Assembly (NCBI RefSeq): GCF_000485905.1
Contig: NC_022664.1
Span: 62,001-126,000 of the forward strand
Reading direction: 5' to 3'
DNA from: Spiribacter curvatus
GTDB taxonomy: Bacteria; Pseudomonadota; Gammaproteobacteria; Nitrococcales; Nitrococcaceae
Length of the DNA stretch: 64,000 bases
A program made the position numbers and the translations under genes. Of the stretch, positions 50,488 to 63,415 are shown in pieces. Below the pieces are notes generated by a model. It was not told where the DNA came from and did no database searches. It saw only the letters and a list, made by a program, of their open reading frames with translations. The number at the start of each line of letters is the position of its first letter. Position 1 is the first letter of the stretch.

Positions 50488-50502
50488 GTGCCTGTCCCAA
50501 AC
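50488..50502 (+). repeat. Dispersed repeat copy 1, GTGCCTGTCCCAAAC
   Basis: Exact 15-nt copy in the groEL-glnE gap, 16 nt after the groESL terminator. It is the only intergenic copy far from the LPS island, and has the same orientation as the other eight. Confidence 0.85.
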
Positions 50503-50546: not shown

Positions 50547-53465
50547 ATGGAAACCGAGACGGCGCCGACTCCCCTGAGAACCGCACTGGCTGCCCTCCCC
50601 GAGGCGTTGGTGACACCCGTTGCTACGGCGCTGGAGAGGCTCCCGGACGGTACGTCATTGCCCGCTGACGAAGCCGTGCTCGCTGAACTCCCACGGGTCT
50701 GGGCCATGAGCGACTTCGCGGCCCGTGTCTGTGTGCGGGATATGGGCATGCTGGTTGATCTCTGCGATAGCGGTGATCTGCATCACGCTTATCCCGACGG
50801 TGGTTTTCGGGTTCGTCTCCGGCAACGGCTCGAGGGCGTTGACGATGAGGCCGCGCTCCACTCGGCCCTGAGGCGCTTCCGGGCCCGTGAAATGCTTCGT
50901 ATCGCCTGGCGGGATCTGACCGGACGAGCCGATCTGGACGATGTTTTGGCGGATCTCTCCGAGCTCGCCGACGTCATCATCGATGAGGCGCTCGCCTGGC
51001 TCTACCCACGGCTTTGCAAGCAGATCGGCACACCCCGGGATGATGCCGGCAATGCCCAGCAGATGATCGTGCTGGGGATGGGCAAGCTCGGTGGGCGAGA
51101 GCTCAATTTCTCGTCTGATATCGATCTGATCTTCGCCTTCCCCGAGCCCGGATTCACCGATGCCACCCAGCCCAAGGCCAACGAACAGTTCTTCCTGCGC
51201 CTGGGCCGCTCCCTGATTGCCGCACTCGATCAACAGACGCCCGACGGGCAGTGCTTCCGCGTTGATATGCGGCTGCGTCCATACGGCGACAGCGGTCCCC
51301 TGGCGATGAGTGTCCCGGCAATGGAGCTCTACTTCGTTGACCAGGGACGCGAGTGGGAGCGCTACGCGCTGATCAAGGCCCGCGTGGTGGCTGGCGATCA
51401 GACTTCGGGACAGGCACTTCTCGATATGCTCTCGCCCTTCGTCTATCGCCGTTACCTGGATTACGGCGCGCTCGAGTCGCTGCGCTCGATGAAGGCAATG
51501 ATCACGCGGGAGGTCCGGCGTCGCCGGTTATCGGACAACGTCAAGCTGGGTCGCGGCGGTATTCGCGAGGTCGAGTTCATCGCCCAGGCGTTCCAGCTGA
51601 TCCGCGGCGGGCAGGAGGCAGCCTTGCGCCAACGCAGCCTCCAGCCGGTCCTTGCCTATCTCTGCGAGCAGGCGCTGATCCCCGAGCATGCCCAGCGCGA
51701 TCTGACCGAAGCCTATCGCTACCTCCGCCGGATCGAGAATCGCATCCAGGCGATGTACGACCGTCAGGCCCACGATCTGCCGACCAACGACCTCGACTGC
51801 GCGCGGCTGGTGCTCGCGATGGGAGTCGCGGACTGGAGCGAACTCCATCGCGAACTCGATCACTGGCGATTGCGCGTTCAAGGGCATTTCGATCAGGTGT
51901 TTGTCGCCCCGCAGCAGGAGGATGAGGCGGAGGTCACCGACGAACCGGATTTCGCCGATATCTGGCATGACGCGGTGGACGAGGCGACCGGTCGCGAGAT
52001 TATGTCGATGGCCGATTTCGCGGATCCCAGTGCGGCACTGACTCTGATCCAGCGTTTCCGGGACGGTGCCCGGGTGCGCGCACTCTCGGAGCAGGGCCGA
52101 AAGCGGCTCGACCGGCTCATGCCAATGCTGATGGCCGCCGTGCATGGCTGTGACTCGCCGGATGCGGCGCTGAGTCGGCTGCTGACACTGCTCGACGGGA
52201 TCGTTCGTCGGACCGCTTATCTGGCGCTGCTCAACGAACACCCCATGGCCATCTCTCAGCTGGTCCGGCTGGTGGGTGGCAGTCCCTGGATCGCCCGCTA
52301 TCTTTCAGCCCACCCCATGCTGCTCGATGAGCTGCTCGATCCGCGATCGCTCTATGCGCCGTTAAGCCGTGAGGCCCTCGCGGCCGACGCCGACAGTCGC
52401 ATGGCGAGTGCCGATATCGATGATCTCGAACAGCAAATGGAAATCCTCCGGCAGTTCAAGCAGACCCAGGTGCTGCGGGTCGCCGCGGCGGATCTTGCCG
52501 GCGCGATCCCCGTCATGCTGGTGAGTGATTACCTGACTGATATCGCTGAGGTGATCCTCCAGCGGGTTCTGCACCTGGCCTGGCGCCAGGTCCGTCAGCG
52601 CTATGGTGAGCCGCTGCGCAATGATGGCGAAGTCGCTGACTTTGGCGTCATCGCGTACGGCAAACTGGGTTCGCTGGAGTTGGGCTACGGCTCCGATCTG
52701 GACGTCGTCTTCCTGCACGATCCGGTACCCGCGGGGTCAGCCACCACCGGTGAGAAGCCCGTTGAACCGGCGGTGTTCTTCTCGCGACTGGCCCAGCGCT
52801 TCATCCACATCCTCAACACCCTTACCCCGGGCGGCATTCTCTACGAGGTCGATACCCGGTTACGGCCCAGTGGTCAGTCGGGCCTGCTGACCATCAGCTT
52901 TGACGCCTTCGTCGAATATCAGCGCGGACGGGCCTGGACCTGGGAACATCAGGCGCTGGTACGAGCGCGCATGGTGGCCGGCGGCGAGTCGCTGCGCGAT
53001 CGCTTCGGTCAGCTGCGTCGCGAGGTCCTGACCCGCCCGCGTCGACGCGATGAACTCCGCGAAGAGGTCCGGCGGATGCGTGAGCGCATGCGTCGTGAAC
53101 TCGGCTCGGGCCGCGCGGATGAGTTCGATATCAAACAGGATCGGGGCGGTATCGCGGATATCGAATTCATGGTTCAATACGGCACGTTGGCCGGGGTTCA
53201 GCAGTACGCCGGCGTATTACGTTATACCGACAATATCCGCCTGCTCGACGAGCTCGAACGGGCGGGTGAGTTAACCACCGAACAAGCCCGAATCCTGGCC
53301 GACGCCTATCGCCAATATCGCGGCATGGTCCATCGATTGACCCTCCAGGAACAGCCCGCCCGGGTGTCCGGGACGGCCGTCGAGCACTCCCGTGCAGCGG
53401 TTATCGGCGTCTGGAATGCACTCATGGAGCCAGGATCGGACACCAACGCTGAGGAGAGCGGCTGA
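50547..53465 (+). CDS. glnE: Glutamine synthetase adenylyltransferase/deadenylase GlnE
   Basis: A 972-residue bifunctional enzyme that sets the activity of glutamine synthetase by adding or removing AMP in response to PII and glutamine. The N-terminal half has the deadenylylase nucleotidyltransferase site GRELNFSSDIDLIFAFPEP. The C-terminal half has the adenylylase site YGSDLDVVFLHD, each followed by a helical GlnD-like domain. Length is near E. coli (946). ilvE starts at its last base. Together with NtrYX this is the second nitrogen-related locus in the window. Confidence 0.96.
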   Translation: METETAPTPLRTALAALPEALVTPVATALERLPDGTSLPADEAVLAELPRVWAMSDFAARVCVRDMGMLVDLCDSGDLHHAYPDGGFRVRLRQRLEGVDDEAALHSALRRFRAREMLRIAWRDLTGRADLDDVLADLSELADVIIDEALAWLYPRLCKQIGTPRDDAGNAQQMIVLGMGKLGGRELNFSSDIDLIFAFPEPGFTDATQPKANEQFFLRLGRSLIAALDQQTPDGQCFRVDMRLRPYGDSGPLAMSVPAMELYFVDQGREWERYALIKARVVAGDQTSGQALLDMLSPFVYRRYLDYGALESLRSMKAMITREVRRRRLSDNVKLGRGGIREVEFIAQAFQLIRGGQEAALRQRSLQPVLAYLCEQALIPEHAQRDLTEAYRYLRRIENRIQAMYDRQAHDLPTNDLDCARLVLAMGVADWSELHRELDHWRLRVQGHFDQVFVAPQQEDEAEVTDEPDFADIWHDAVDEATGREIMSMADFADPSAALTLIQRFRDGARVRALSEQGRKRLDRLMPMLMAAVHGCDSPDAALSRLLTLLDGIVRRTAYLALLNEHPMAISQLVRLVGGSPWIARYLSAHPMLLDELLDPRSLYAPLSREALAADADSRMASADIDDLEQQMEILRQFKQTQVLRVAAADLAGAIPVMLVSDYLTDIAEVILQRVLHLAWRQVRQRYGEPLRNDGEVADFGVIAYGKLGSLELGYGSDLDVVFLHDPVPAGSATTGEKPVEPAVFFSRLAQRFIHILNTLTPGGILYEVDTRLRPSGQSGLLTISFDAFVEYQRGRAWTWEHQALVRARMVAGGESLRDRFGQLRREVLTRPRRRDELREEVRRMRERMRRELGSGRADEFDIKQDRGGIADIEFMVQYGTLAGVQQYAGVLRYTDNIRLLDELERAGELTTEQARILADAYRQYRGMVHRLTLQEQPARVSGTAVEHSRAAVIGVWNALMEPGSDTNAEESG

Positions 53466-59526: not shown

Positions 59527-59541
59527 GTGCCTGTCCCTAAC
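59527..59541 (+). repeat. Dispersed repeat copy 2 (variant tail TAAC)
   Basis: GTGCCTGTCCCTAAC, one mismatch to the consensus. Read on the minus strand it supplies the TAG stop of the GT2 gene (59537-59539) and covers the region 5-20 nt before the start codon of the following GT4 gene. Confidence 0.85.
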
Positions 59542-60445
59542 CGTGGCTTCCATCTCGGTCAGTGGTTCCGTTTGTGCCTGTCCCAAACTTGCGCTGCTGG
59601 CGCTGCATTTCGTAGAGGAATGCATACTTGAGAAAACCGGAGAACATGGAAGACCAGGCGATGATCCAGCCACGCCATCCATCCCGCCAGCCTTGGCGGA
59701 AGATCAGTAGGCGGATGAAGCGGGCCAGTGGCGAAAAGATCATCTTATGCCACCGAAATGGCTTGCCGCGGGCAGACAGGGCCTCCGCGCCGATCTTTGC
59801 GTAATCGATACTCCGACGGAAATGATCCTCGACACCGGTGTAGGAGTAATGGTGGATATCTCCGTCGATACGTCCCGTTGCCCCCTCTACCTCAAGGCGA
59901 TCATGCGGGTTATAGCCCGTCCACTTCGCCATGCCGCGACGCACCAGTCGCAGACGCCATTCGGGATACCAGACGTGGCGTAACCAGTCGCCCAGGTAAT
60001 AGGTGAGACGGCTGATCTCGTAGCCGTTTCTCTGGGGAGCGTTGTTTTTCGCGAGCAGATCGCGGAGATTATCAGCCAGTTCGGGACTGATTGGCTCATC
60101 AGCGTCCAGGGAGAGGACCCAGGGCTGATGACAGGCCGAGAGTGCCCGGTTTTTCTGCTCGACGTGCCCTGGCCAGTCAGTCTCGATAACCTGGGCGCCG
60201 TAATCGCGGGCGATGGCCACCGTCGAGTCCGTCGATCCCGAATCAACGACGATCACCTCGGCTGGTTCCAGACGCTCGAGGCTGTCGAAGAGTCGCGGCA
60301 GATTCGCCTCTTCATCTTTGGTGATGATGGCGACGGATAAGGGAAGTGCCTGTCCCAAACCTCGGCAATCGGCATTATCGTTCAATTTAGCTGAGACCTC
60401 GCTCGACCAGATCACGGAAGTAGGCAACGGTCGGCTTGAGTCCAT
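59537..60445 (-). CDS. GT2-family glycosyltransferase (WaaE/KdtX-like)
   Basis: A 302-residue GT-A enzyme resembling LPS core beta-glucosyltransferases. [16 protein letters not shown] begins the conserved part at about residue 36. [10 protein letters not shown] and [10 protein letters not shown] carry the metal-binding DxD-type motif, and a membrane-associated tail follows. Sequence before residue 36 includes a repeat copy (GLGQALP), and the last 17 residues are repeat-derived (KFGTGTN and on). The true start is uncertain: ATG 60445 overlaps the upstream gene by 59 nt; TTG 60385 follows its stop directly. Confidence 0.82.
59574..59588 (+). repeat. Dispersed repeat copy 3
   Basis: Exact GTGCCTGTCCCAAAC inside the 3' end of the GT2 gene, coding for FGTGTN on the minus strand. 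It lies 47 nt from copy 2. Confidence 0.88.
60346..60360 (+). repeat. Dispersed repeat copy 4
   Basis: Exact 15-nt copy just upstream of the conserved part of the GT2 gene, read as GLGQAL if translated. It includes an in-frame TTG that could serve as a start. Confidence 0.88.
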
Positions 60446-61379: not shown

Positions 61380-62459
61380 TCAGCTGAGTTGACTCAGTTG
61401 CTGATCGATCGTGTGGGTCACATAGTCCGGTGTGATACCACGCAGACAGTTGAGGTGCCCGAGCGGGCAGTATCGCTCGAAGCAGGGACTGCACTCGAGG
61501 CCTCGATAGATAACCGTCGCATGGTGGCTAAGTGGCGGAGTATATTGAGGATCTGATGAACCGTACAGGGCGATGACTGAAGCGGGTGTGGCGGCGGCAA
61601 TATGCATGAGTCCGGAGTCGTTCGTGACGACCACCGTACTGGCCGCGAGCAGATCGATGGCCTGACTGAGCGTGGTCTCGCCCGTCAGGTCGATGACTTC
61701 GGGGGCCTCGCTGGCAATCGCCTGGGCCAGCTCACTGTCCTTATCAGAACCGAGCAGCCCTACCTGCCAGCCGCGCTCCAGATACTCCCTCGCCAGCGCA
61801 GCAAAATATCCCGCGGGCCAGCGTTTCGCCGGGCCGTACTCGGCGCCAGGGCAGAGGGTGAGGATTGTGCCTGTCCCAAACCTTCCATTGAGTCCCAATG
61901 CTGCGAGAGTCGCTTGCTGCTGATCGCTGGAACTAATGAGCTGTGGCGGTTCGATGGGTGGTGGGTTTGTGCCTGTCCCAAACTGTGCAGTCCCAAACTG
62001 TGCAAACTTCGAGGCATTTGACTCGGCCAGCGCGACGAAGCGATCGACTGTTCGGTAGGTGCGCTCCCGGTTAAGCGGTCTGATGTCGTTGAGTAGCCCG
62101 TAGCGATGTTCGCCCAGGTAGCCAGTGCGTTTTGGAATACGCGCGATCCAGGGGATAAGGGCGGCCTTTGCCGAGCGCGGCAGTACGATCGCTCGAGCGT
62201 GGAGGAGGCGTTTGAGTGCCTGTCCCAAACGCCAGCGCCGAATGAGTCCCAGCTCGCCATGTGCGACTGGTAGGGTGAATGTGTGACGAACCTCCGGCAT
62301 TCGCTCGAGAAGTGCCTGTCCCCAAGAGGGAGCGATTACATCGATTGCGCGGTCGGGTGCCTCACGCTTGAGCGCTCGAAAGAGGCTCTGTGCCATCACC
62401 ATGTCGCCTACCCAGCCCGGCCCGACGACGAGGATGGCGTCGCTGGGCTGGTCGGTCAT
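61380..62459 (-). CDS. waaF: LPS heptosyltransferase II WaaF, with repeat insertions
   Basis: A 359-residue GT9 enzyme that adds the second heptose to the inner core. It begins ILVVGPGWVGDMVMAQSLF, and the ADP-heptose site is LCPGAEYGPAKRWP, with VTNDSGLMHIAAA and the late CSPCFERYCPLGHLNCL. Four repeat cores fall in the frame. Two code for FGTGT in a variable linker (about residues 160-200), with a tandem five-codon duplication beside one. Two code for GQAL inside conserved blocks. ATG 62459 overlaps the acyltransferase gene by 4 nt. Activity should be retained because catalytic motifs are intact. Confidence 0.92.
   Translation of the reverse strand: MTDQPSDAILVVGPGWVGDMVMAQSLFRALKREAPDRAIDVIAPSWGQALLERMPEVRHTFTLPVAHGELGLIRRWRLGQALKRLLHARAIVLPRSAKAALIPWIARIPKRTGYLGEHRYGLLNDIRPLNRERTYRTVDRFVALAESNASKFAQFGTAQFGTGTNPPPIEPPQLISSSDQQQATLAALGLNGRFGTGTILTLCPGAEYGPAKRWPAGYFAALAREYLERGWQVGLLGSDKDSELAQAIASEAPEVIDLTGETTLSQAIDLLAASTVVVTNDSGLMHIAAATPASVIALYGSSDPQYTPPLSHHATVIYRGLECSPCFERYCPLGHLNCLRGITPDYVTHTIDQQLSQLS
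61867..61881 (+). repeat. Dispersed repeat copy 5 (in waaF)
   Basis: Exact copy, coding FGTGT on the minus strand between GLNGR and ILTLCPGAEYG, just before the ADP-heptose site. Confidence 0.88.
61969..61983 (+). repeat. Dispersed repeat copy 6 (in waaF)
   Basis: Exact copy coding FGTGTN in the linker of waaF. It merges into the tandem duplication at 61975-62004. Confidence 0.88.
61975..62004 (+). repeat. 15-bp tandem duplication in waaF
   Basis: GTCCCAAACTGTGCA occurs twice head to tail, with no mismatch. The 15-bp unit is five codons, so a gain or loss of a unit keeps the reading frame. It shares its first 9 nt with the dispersed repeat. Confidence 0.9.
62216..62230 (+). repeat. Dispersed repeat copy 7 (in waaF)
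   Basis: Exact copy, read in a different frame than copies 5 and 6, giving LGQAL inside RRWRLGQALKRL, a region where homologues have similar residues. Confidence 0.85.
62312..62326 (+). repeat. Dispersed repeat copy 8 (in waaF, variant)
   Basis: GTGCCTGTCCCCAAG; the core is exact and the tail differs. Codes WGQAL in APSWGQALLERMPEV, a conserved region of the enzyme. Confidence 0.75.
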
Positions 62460-63415
62460 TGGATCTCTCCATGGCGGTTGTGGGGTTTCTGCAGCGCATT
62501 GGCATAGGCTGGCCGCTCGCCTGGTGGCGGGTGCTTGAACCGGCGGTGGAGCCAGAGATACTGCTCGGGATGCGCGCGGATCCCCCGTTCGATGACCGCA
62601 TTCATCCATTGGGCATCGGTGCGGTCATTACCGGTCGGGAATCCCGACATCGCCGGTGCCAGAGAGACTTCATAGCCGCTGCCATCGGCGTTGACGTTGA
62701 AAAACAGCGGTACGACCCTCGCGCCGCTCATTCTGCTGAGACGCATCAATCCGGTCGTGGTCGGTGTCGGAACACCCATGAAGGGCACGAATTCGCTGTT
62801 GCGGATGCCATAGTCCTGATCCCCCGCATACCAGACTGGCGTTCCCTCTTTGAGTGTCCGCACGATTTTCCGCAGCTCCGTGCGTGGCAGTGCATCTGCC
62901 AGCGTCCGCGACCGGCTCCGCAGCATCGCTTGGTCCATGAGCGGTTTTTTACGCATCGGCTTGTAAATCGCAGCCATCCGGATCCGGGGCCCGATCAGCC
63001 GGGCGGCGAGCTCAATACATAGAAAATGCCCCGATAGCAGAACGACTGGCGACCCGTCCGATTGCGCTGCTTCCAGATGCTCCAGCCCATGGACTTTGCA
63101 GGGGATTCGATCGACACGCGCACCCCCGAACCAGGCAAGCGCGGTTTCCGCTACCGCTCGGCCGGTGTAGCGCAGATTAACGCGGATGATGTGATCACGT
63201 TGTGCCTGTCCCAATTCCGGGAAACAAAGCTCGAGATTTCGCTTCGCGACCCTGCGTCGTTGGGTCGGGAAGTGATCGAGTAGCCGACCGACAGCCTCGC
63301 CGATTGCGAAGGCAATGCGTGGCGGCAATTTCCCGAGCATCCAGAGCAGCGCCAGAGAAAAGCGCTGGCTGACGCGATGGCGCAGGTCGGTCGTCGCGGA
63401 GCTGGAATCGGACAC
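62456..63415 (-). CDS. LpxL/HtrB-family lipid A acyltransferase (second copy)
   Basis: A 319-residue acyltransferase. The H-x4-E site is LSGHFLCIELA (about residue 114); VWYAGDQDYGIRNSEFVPFMG and the C-terminal YLWLHRRFKHPP are typical of lauroyl/myristoyl transferases. The N-terminus has the usual amphipathic helix region. It starts with GTG 63415. It contains repeat copy 9 (ELGQAQRD). It overlaps waaF by 4 nt and is divergent from hldE, so lipid A finishing and core assembly genes share one transcript. Confidence 0.92.
   Translation of the reverse strand: MSDSSSATTDLRHRVSQRFSLALLWMLGKLPPRIAFAIGEAVGRLLDHFPTQRRRVAKRNLELCFPELGQAQRDHIIRVNLRYTGRAVAETALAWFGGARVDRIPCKVHGLEHLEAAQSDGSPVVLLSGHFLCIELAARLIGPRIRMAAIYKPMRKKPLMDQAMLRSRSRTLADALPRTELRKIVRTLKEGTPVWYAGDQDYGIRNSEFVPFMGVPTPTTTGLMRLSRMSGARVVPLFFNVNADGSGYEVSLAPAMSGFPTGNDRTDAQWMNAVIERGIRAHPEQYLWLHRRFKHPPPGERPAYANALQKPHNRHGEIQ
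63202..63216 (+). repeat. Dispersed repeat copy 9 (in acyltransferase, variant tail)
   Basis: GTGCCTGTCCCAATT; exact core with a changed tail. Codes LGQAQ in CFPELGQAQRD, within a region that is conserved in the family. Confidence 0.75.

Follow-up and report, generated by a model that had tools for sequence, protein, structure and literature searches.

The 11-nucleotide word GTGCCTGTCCC occurs in ten exact copies, nine on the plus strand and one on the minus strand, in 64 kb of the Spiribacter curvatus genome. The question raised by this locus is whether such a repeat, much of it lying inside reading frames, matters as a peptide or as DNA. The window is the whole stretch analysed, C1:62001-126000 of a 1.93 Mb single-contig genome (G000); coordinates prefixed C1 refer to that contig, and all others to the window. 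The copies in the window are as follows.

50488..50498, plus strand: motif copy GTGCCTGTCCC, intergenic, between groEL and glnE (exact match).
51407..51417, minus strand: motif copy inside glnE, read SGQAL (exact match; GlnE assigned by Pfam).
59527..59537, plus strand: motif copy between a group-1 glycosyltransferase gene and the GT2 gene (exact match).
59574..59584, plus strand: copy read FGTGT in GT2, in the C-terminal tail that extends past the conserved protein (alignment).
60346..60356, plus strand: motif copy in an N-terminal extension of GT2 whose start codon is uncertain, read LGQAL (alignment).
61867..61877, plus strand: motif copy in WaaF directly before ILTLCPGAEYG, read FGTGT (alignment).
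61969..61979, plus strand: motif copy in the inter-domain linker of WaaF, read FGTGT (alignment).
62216..62226, plus strand: WaaF copy read LGQAL, which replaces LGR[AS]L without a gap (alignment).
62312..62322, plus strand: WaaF copy read WGQAL, which replaces WS[LE][AP]L without a gap (alignment).
63202..63212, plus strand: copy read LGQAQ in the lipid A acyltransferase, which replaces L[SG]xxx without a gap (alignment).

The initial annotation had read the coding copies as FGTGT (59574, 61867, and 61969) or xGQA (60346, 62216, 62312, and 63202), and its numbering matches. The minus-strand copy in glnE, 51407-51417 (SGQAL), was missed or unused there. That glnE copy is common to three further Spiribacter, and the ortholog lacking the motif reads GGEAL without an indel. 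The WaaF copies at 61867 and 62312 and the acyltransferase copy at 63202 are each common to six Spiribacter, and other relatives have a length-variable linker at the site of the 61867 copy. A 15-nucleotide partial tandem duplication at 61984-61998 directly follows the WaaF copy at 61969. Short tandem duplications beginning in or just past the motif are present at window positions 61969-61998 and at C1:136535-136620 (GTCCCAAACTGTGCA; CCAAACATACTCT), as though the motif prompted slippage locally.

The same annotation had described two preferred phases, with the third (WDRH) unused. This is true within the window and fails beyond it, where a WDRH reading first appears at C1:126167, 167 bases past the window end. 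Same-orientation intragenic copies in seven Spiribacter genomes (n=120) are read as GQA in 58 cases, GTGT in 37, and DRH in 25. The third frame is not avoided, and the two-phase pattern is a window-edge effect. The 22 opposite-orientation intragenic copies in those genomes are read as VPV (17), CLS (3), or ACP (2). Unique alignment sites in six genomes number 20 for GQA, 8 for GTGT, 6 for DRH, 4 for VPV, and 1 for CLS, counts that leave out misassigned paralogues (WaaF versus a second GT9, and two acyltransferases). The six genomes have a common ancestry and shared sites are not independent events; on the unique sites the GQA phase is favoured (p = 0.006 versus uniform).

No stop codon occurs in any of the six frames of the motif, so only its length, and not its content, could break a reading frame. 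GQA is the commonest reading and the frames that carry Cys are nearly unused. This pattern would be expected if proteins filter the copies by harmlessness. The choice of phases is best accounted for by the harmlessness of the encoded peptides, and coding tolerance would therefore be a side effect. In the six main genomes, 136 of 167 copies are wholly coding, a proportion near the coding fraction of the region, and the mostly intergenic placement of REP elements was not found for the motif copies there.

Constraint on the DNA was assessed at synonymous positions. Where two species have the same amino acid, retention of a rare codon inside the motif was compared with retention elsewhere in the same genes. 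The values inside versus elsewhere are 85 versus 20% for GGA, 87 versus 22% for GCA, 84 versus 29% for GGG, 100 versus 24% for ACA, 100 versus 18% for AGG, and 100 versus 22% for CCT. For the single pair G000/G011, codons are kept at 32 of 34 positions inside the motif versus 64 of 275 elsewhere (Fisher p = 2.9e-16). Retention is high in every phase and in both orientations, with the opposite-orientation VPV copies equally constrained. Because rare synonymous codons in the motif are kept between species, it is the DNA word itself that is held, and the peptide is tolerated. The bases directly outside the 11 nucleotides are only 53-78% identical between species, and recent gene exchange is therefore not the explanation. 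Against 30 exact copies, G000 has only 3 that carry one mismatch. One-mismatch copies are commoner in G009 and G018, at 13 each, so maintenance is not uniform.

The copies are confined to one part of the genome. The motif occurs 37 times in 1.93 Mb, versus 3 times for a reversed control word, and 30 of the 37 copies lie in C1:112488-146929, a span of 34.4 kb (binomial p ~3e-46). The same fraction, 30 of 37, lies no more than ~21 kb from the gene for a REP-associated tyrosine transposase (RAYT). Density by distance from this gene is 0.9-1.6 copies per kb up to 10 kb, dropping to 0.4 at 10-15 kb and to no more than 0.2 further out. The cluster is centred on the RAYT whatever genes neighbour it and covers cydDC, glnE, and others besides the LPS genes. 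The syntenic LPS region without a RAYT in G013, G014, and G010 contains 0 motif copies. Separately, 7 kb of a gammaproteobacterial contig (G250:C14:1-6900) contain 17 copies; many of them form a tandem-like array that is translated as SGTGT within an RDD-family protein, and a RAYT was not found on the stretch read.

The RAYT ORF spans C1:132969-134087, with a likely start at 133074, and is located ~7 kb past the right end of the window in the middle of the motif cluster. An hmmscan of the ORF gives a Y1_Tnp score of 25.1 bits (cut-off 23). Against NCBIfam REP_Tyr_transpos the score is 43.6 bits (E 2.6e-11), below the cut-off of 80, which places the Spiribacter RAYT, as judged by profile score, as related to the curated REP_Tyr_transpos equivalog but outside it. 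A whole-genome search with the PF01797 profile had suggested that the genome has no Y1 transposase; this was a false negative, the hmmscan of the ORF itself being positive. The SNHYH (HUH) and AYVDLNPxRAG motifs align across RAYT homologues. For an orthologue, the best PDB match to the predicted fold (pLDDT 83) is the E. coli RAYT-REP complex 4er8 (Foldseek, 4er8_A; probability 1.00, E of only 0.002, TM 0.56 by target length), followed by IS200/IS605 transposases. A sequence search of solved structures found no match. All seven of the seven motif-rich Spiribacter have an orthologous RAYT (47-76% identity) inside their own cluster. The nearest exact copies flanking the gene in G000, at 132535 (+) and 134514 (+) of C1, are in direct orientation, counting exact copies only. 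A GGGACAG core is present around the RAYT gene, and most copies lack the fourth G.

The initial annotation had valued the element as a protein spacer and a route for protein change. That proposal is not supported: the DNA is held at synonymous positions in all phases, occurs between genes as well, and is centred on the RAYT.

Other RAYTs are ringed by other words. G013 and G016 encode a 44%-identical RAYT elsewhere in the genome, close to atp, glmU, glmS, and parAB. The G013 gene is ringed by TGGGTGTCCA, which has 58 copies in the genome, most within ~40 kb; its 9-mer TGGGTGTCC has 33 copies in 40 kb, where 0.36 are expected. The commonest readings of TGGGTGTCCA are LDT[HQ] (13) and [LV]GV[QH] (11), in frames without Cys, Trp, or Pro. 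The RAYT of G016 is ringed by TGCCTGTCCA, with 27 copies of GGACAGGCA in 20 kb (0.26 expected), and that of G012 by TGCCTGTCCT. The G016 and G013 words occupy the same position at two of five alignable sites, a small sample that suggests that the word may switch along with the enzyme. In G013:C1:1696001-1736000, the TGGGTGTCCA halo extends over polA, uvrD, atp, glmU, glmS, parAB, and gidA, with the RAYT near the presumed origin.

Outside the genus, a homologue in Ectothiorhodospira mobilis has four copies within 1.3 kb, and a TGTCC-type word is among the most enriched 8-mers at ~13 of the 44 RAYT loci examined. Many RAYT relatives outside Spiribacter (e.g., Aeromonas) have no halo in their 10 kb flanks. 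Both TGCCTGTCC and TGGGTGTCC are enriched in the RAYT neighbourhood of an Ectothiorhodospiraceae MAG, which may represent a transition state. The RAYT neighbourhoods of Microbulbifer, a ZC4 gammaproteobacterium, and Pseudoalteromonas are enriched in GGGTGTCC or CTGTCCACGT words.

How copies enter genes depends on the phase, and here the initial annotation was borne out by alignment with relatives lacking the motif. Sites read FGTGT, which it had called insertions, lie mostly in length-variable linkers or tails. Sites read GQA (WGQAL, LGQAL, and LGQAQ), which it had called replacements in conserved blocks, are gap-free and length-preserving. In WaaF, the six motif-bearing Spiribacter have WGQALLERMPEV where relatives have WS[LE][AP]LLxRMPEV, with no indel. 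In CydD, two FGTGT readings lie between the membrane and ATPase domains as delimited by Pfam, and three genomes have the motif placed exactly on the ABC signature SGGQAQR. CydD relatives without the motif have the native SGGQAQR residues in other codons. The annotation had set such a pattern, the same residues written with different codons in other bacteria, against its own proposal; it is present at the CydD signature LSGGQAQR and not at the WaaF sites.

At the gap-free GQA sites, RAYT-free relatives match 5.8 of the 11 bases versus 3.1 in random in-phase windows. These prior matches fall mainly at codon positions 1 and 2, so peptide tolerance explains most of the outgroup look-alike; third positions are close to the null value at two of the four sites and exceed it at the remaining two. 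Homology-seeded copying, with ssDNA annealing at DNA look-alikes, was considered and rejected, given that the outgroup look-alikes sit at codon positions 1 and 2. Comparison of close species pairs reveals private copies, gains and losses of one base, and unit insertions of 24-35 nucleotides between direct copies.

Taken as a whole, GTGCCTGTCCC is probably the recognition motif of a local RAYT-type (TIRYT-like, HUH/Y1) transposase, maintained at the DNA level. We infer that the RAYT binds or nicks the motif. The RAYT would recognise the word and act locally, leaving nearly all copies within about 15-20 kb of its gene. New copies may arise by short insertion or tandem duplication of a motif-plus-spacer unit and would survive between genes and in linkers or tails (FGTGT). 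They may also arise by length-preserving base changes where the residues are near GQA (SGGQAQR, LGRAL, WSEAL), and these would survive in conserved blocks. Proteins would filter where copies may sit. Once established, the 11 nucleotides are held exactly whatever the phase or orientation, and the bases immediately flanking them drift freely. The word is presumably kept since a RAYT-bound site is useful to the host, and host-level selection is preferred over continual rewriting. Counting against a RAYT reading, the copies are mostly direct and not inverted, most lack the fourth G of the TIRYT motif, the Foldseek E-value is only 0.002, many RAYTs outside Spiribacter have no halo, and we know of no cell function of RAYTs that would need conserved sites.

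It is conceivable, though we lean against it, that a domesticated RAYT and its 11-nucleotide word form a local, orientation-independent nucleoprotein system with selected sites, the word switching together with the specificity of the protein. Selection would then make and keep sites up to about 15 kb from the gene, by point mutation and insertion, and the sites would sit inside essential genes at the price of rare codons. In layout it would resemble parS/ParB or matS/MatP. A purely selfish REP-like element is an unlikely account, in which the RAYT disperses copies locally, the copies are neutral leftovers, and their exactness reflects recent activity. It would fit a halo that surrounds a transposase, the unit-sized insertions between direct copies, the private copies in close pairs, and the general view of REPs as non-autonomous elements moved by RAYTs (PMC8049555, PMC3733652). 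However, many sites are common to four to six species with the exact 11 nucleotides, in genes that keep ~20% of rare codons, and old neutral copies should leave many one-mismatch relics. A selfish element with continual renewal is possible.

The position of the window copies in LPS genes and the shared orientation, relative to the gene, of 34 of 39 unique coding sites would suit an ops-like regulatory element of the LPS operon that acts on mRNA or transcription. This is highly improbable. The opposite-orientation VPV copies are as constrained, the halo also covers cydDC, glnE, and others and follows the RAYT rather than the LPS genes, and in G013 a different variant of the motif forms a halo over polA, uvrD, atp, glm, and par genes. 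The orientation bias arises because Cys-bearing reverse frames are avoided. A genome-wide host signal, such as a DNA-uptake, Chi-, or KOPS-like sequence, would likewise be short, exact, non-palindromic, and kept in coding frames, as DNA uptake sequences are, but is very hard to credit when only 7 of 37 copies lie outside 34 kb of 1.93 Mb and the motif is absent from relatives without the RAYT. Selection for the FGTGT and GQAL peptides, with the DNA repeat incidental, would account for the similar residues of relatives at the GQA sites (5.8 of 11 bases versus 3.1 by chance). Its probability is negligible: the retention of synonymous codons refutes it, and the identical word is translated in no fewer than five phases and is also found between genes.

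The RAYT reading bears on what these proteins do for their hosts, as an exact word rings the gene, is maintained at the nucleotide level across species and inside essential genes, and differs between RAYTs. It offers a compact, testable system: a single gene, a single 11-nucleotide site mapped at about 30 positions, and natural variants of matched specificity. For annotators, unusual residues such as FGTGT in the linkers of WaaF or CydD would be transposase footprints and not protein adaptations. In-frame insertion of REPs in linkers is already known (PMC3733652; PMC6006769). A literature search by motif sequence returned only unrelated primers, and no description of local confinement, nucleotide-level maintenance in genes, or word switching with the enzyme was found in open-licence papers.

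Several known systems can be compared. TIRYTs/TIRtrons pair a RAYT-like gene with repeats of the GGGGWSAS type (Di Nocera 2013, PMC3733652; subclass 2.1 TnpA_REP, PMC6006769), and their TIRs are terminal inverted repeats in moderately abundant families (PMC3733652; PMC6006769). The Spiribacter system is like them in its long-type Y1/HUH RAYT-like transposase with a C-terminal extension, and its GGGACAG, mostly without the fourth G, may correspond to the GGGGWSAS core; it differs in that the repeat is an 11-nucleotide word, mostly direct, intragenic, local (~15-20 kb), and held at synonymous positions. REPs of E. coli and Pseudomonas are GTAG-tagged palindromes of 20-40 bp, almost wholly intergenic and genome-wide (PMC3116915, PMC8049555). 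As in REP/REPIN-RAYT systems, the repeats are tied to a single, vertically inherited RAYT whose fold resembles 4er8, but the word is local and intragenic. Its 11-nucleotide core contains neither a GT[AG]G tetranucleotide nor a palindrome, and the flanks are not conserved. Rickettsia palindromic elements (RPEs) and intragenic REPs are tolerated in-frame in proteins, often in linkers (PMC3733652, PMC6006769). RPEs are much longer insertions, whereas the Spiribacter sites are often same-length replacements with conserved synonymous positions. The DNA uptake sequences of Haemophilus and Neisseria are short exact words in coding frames, with a phase bias, and are genome-wide. They apparently originate by substitution as well, and differ in that they are not known to have a linked transposase. 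The best reading is a variant REP/RAYT (TIRYT) system with a short, non-palindromic, local, and mostly intragenic putative recognition motif.
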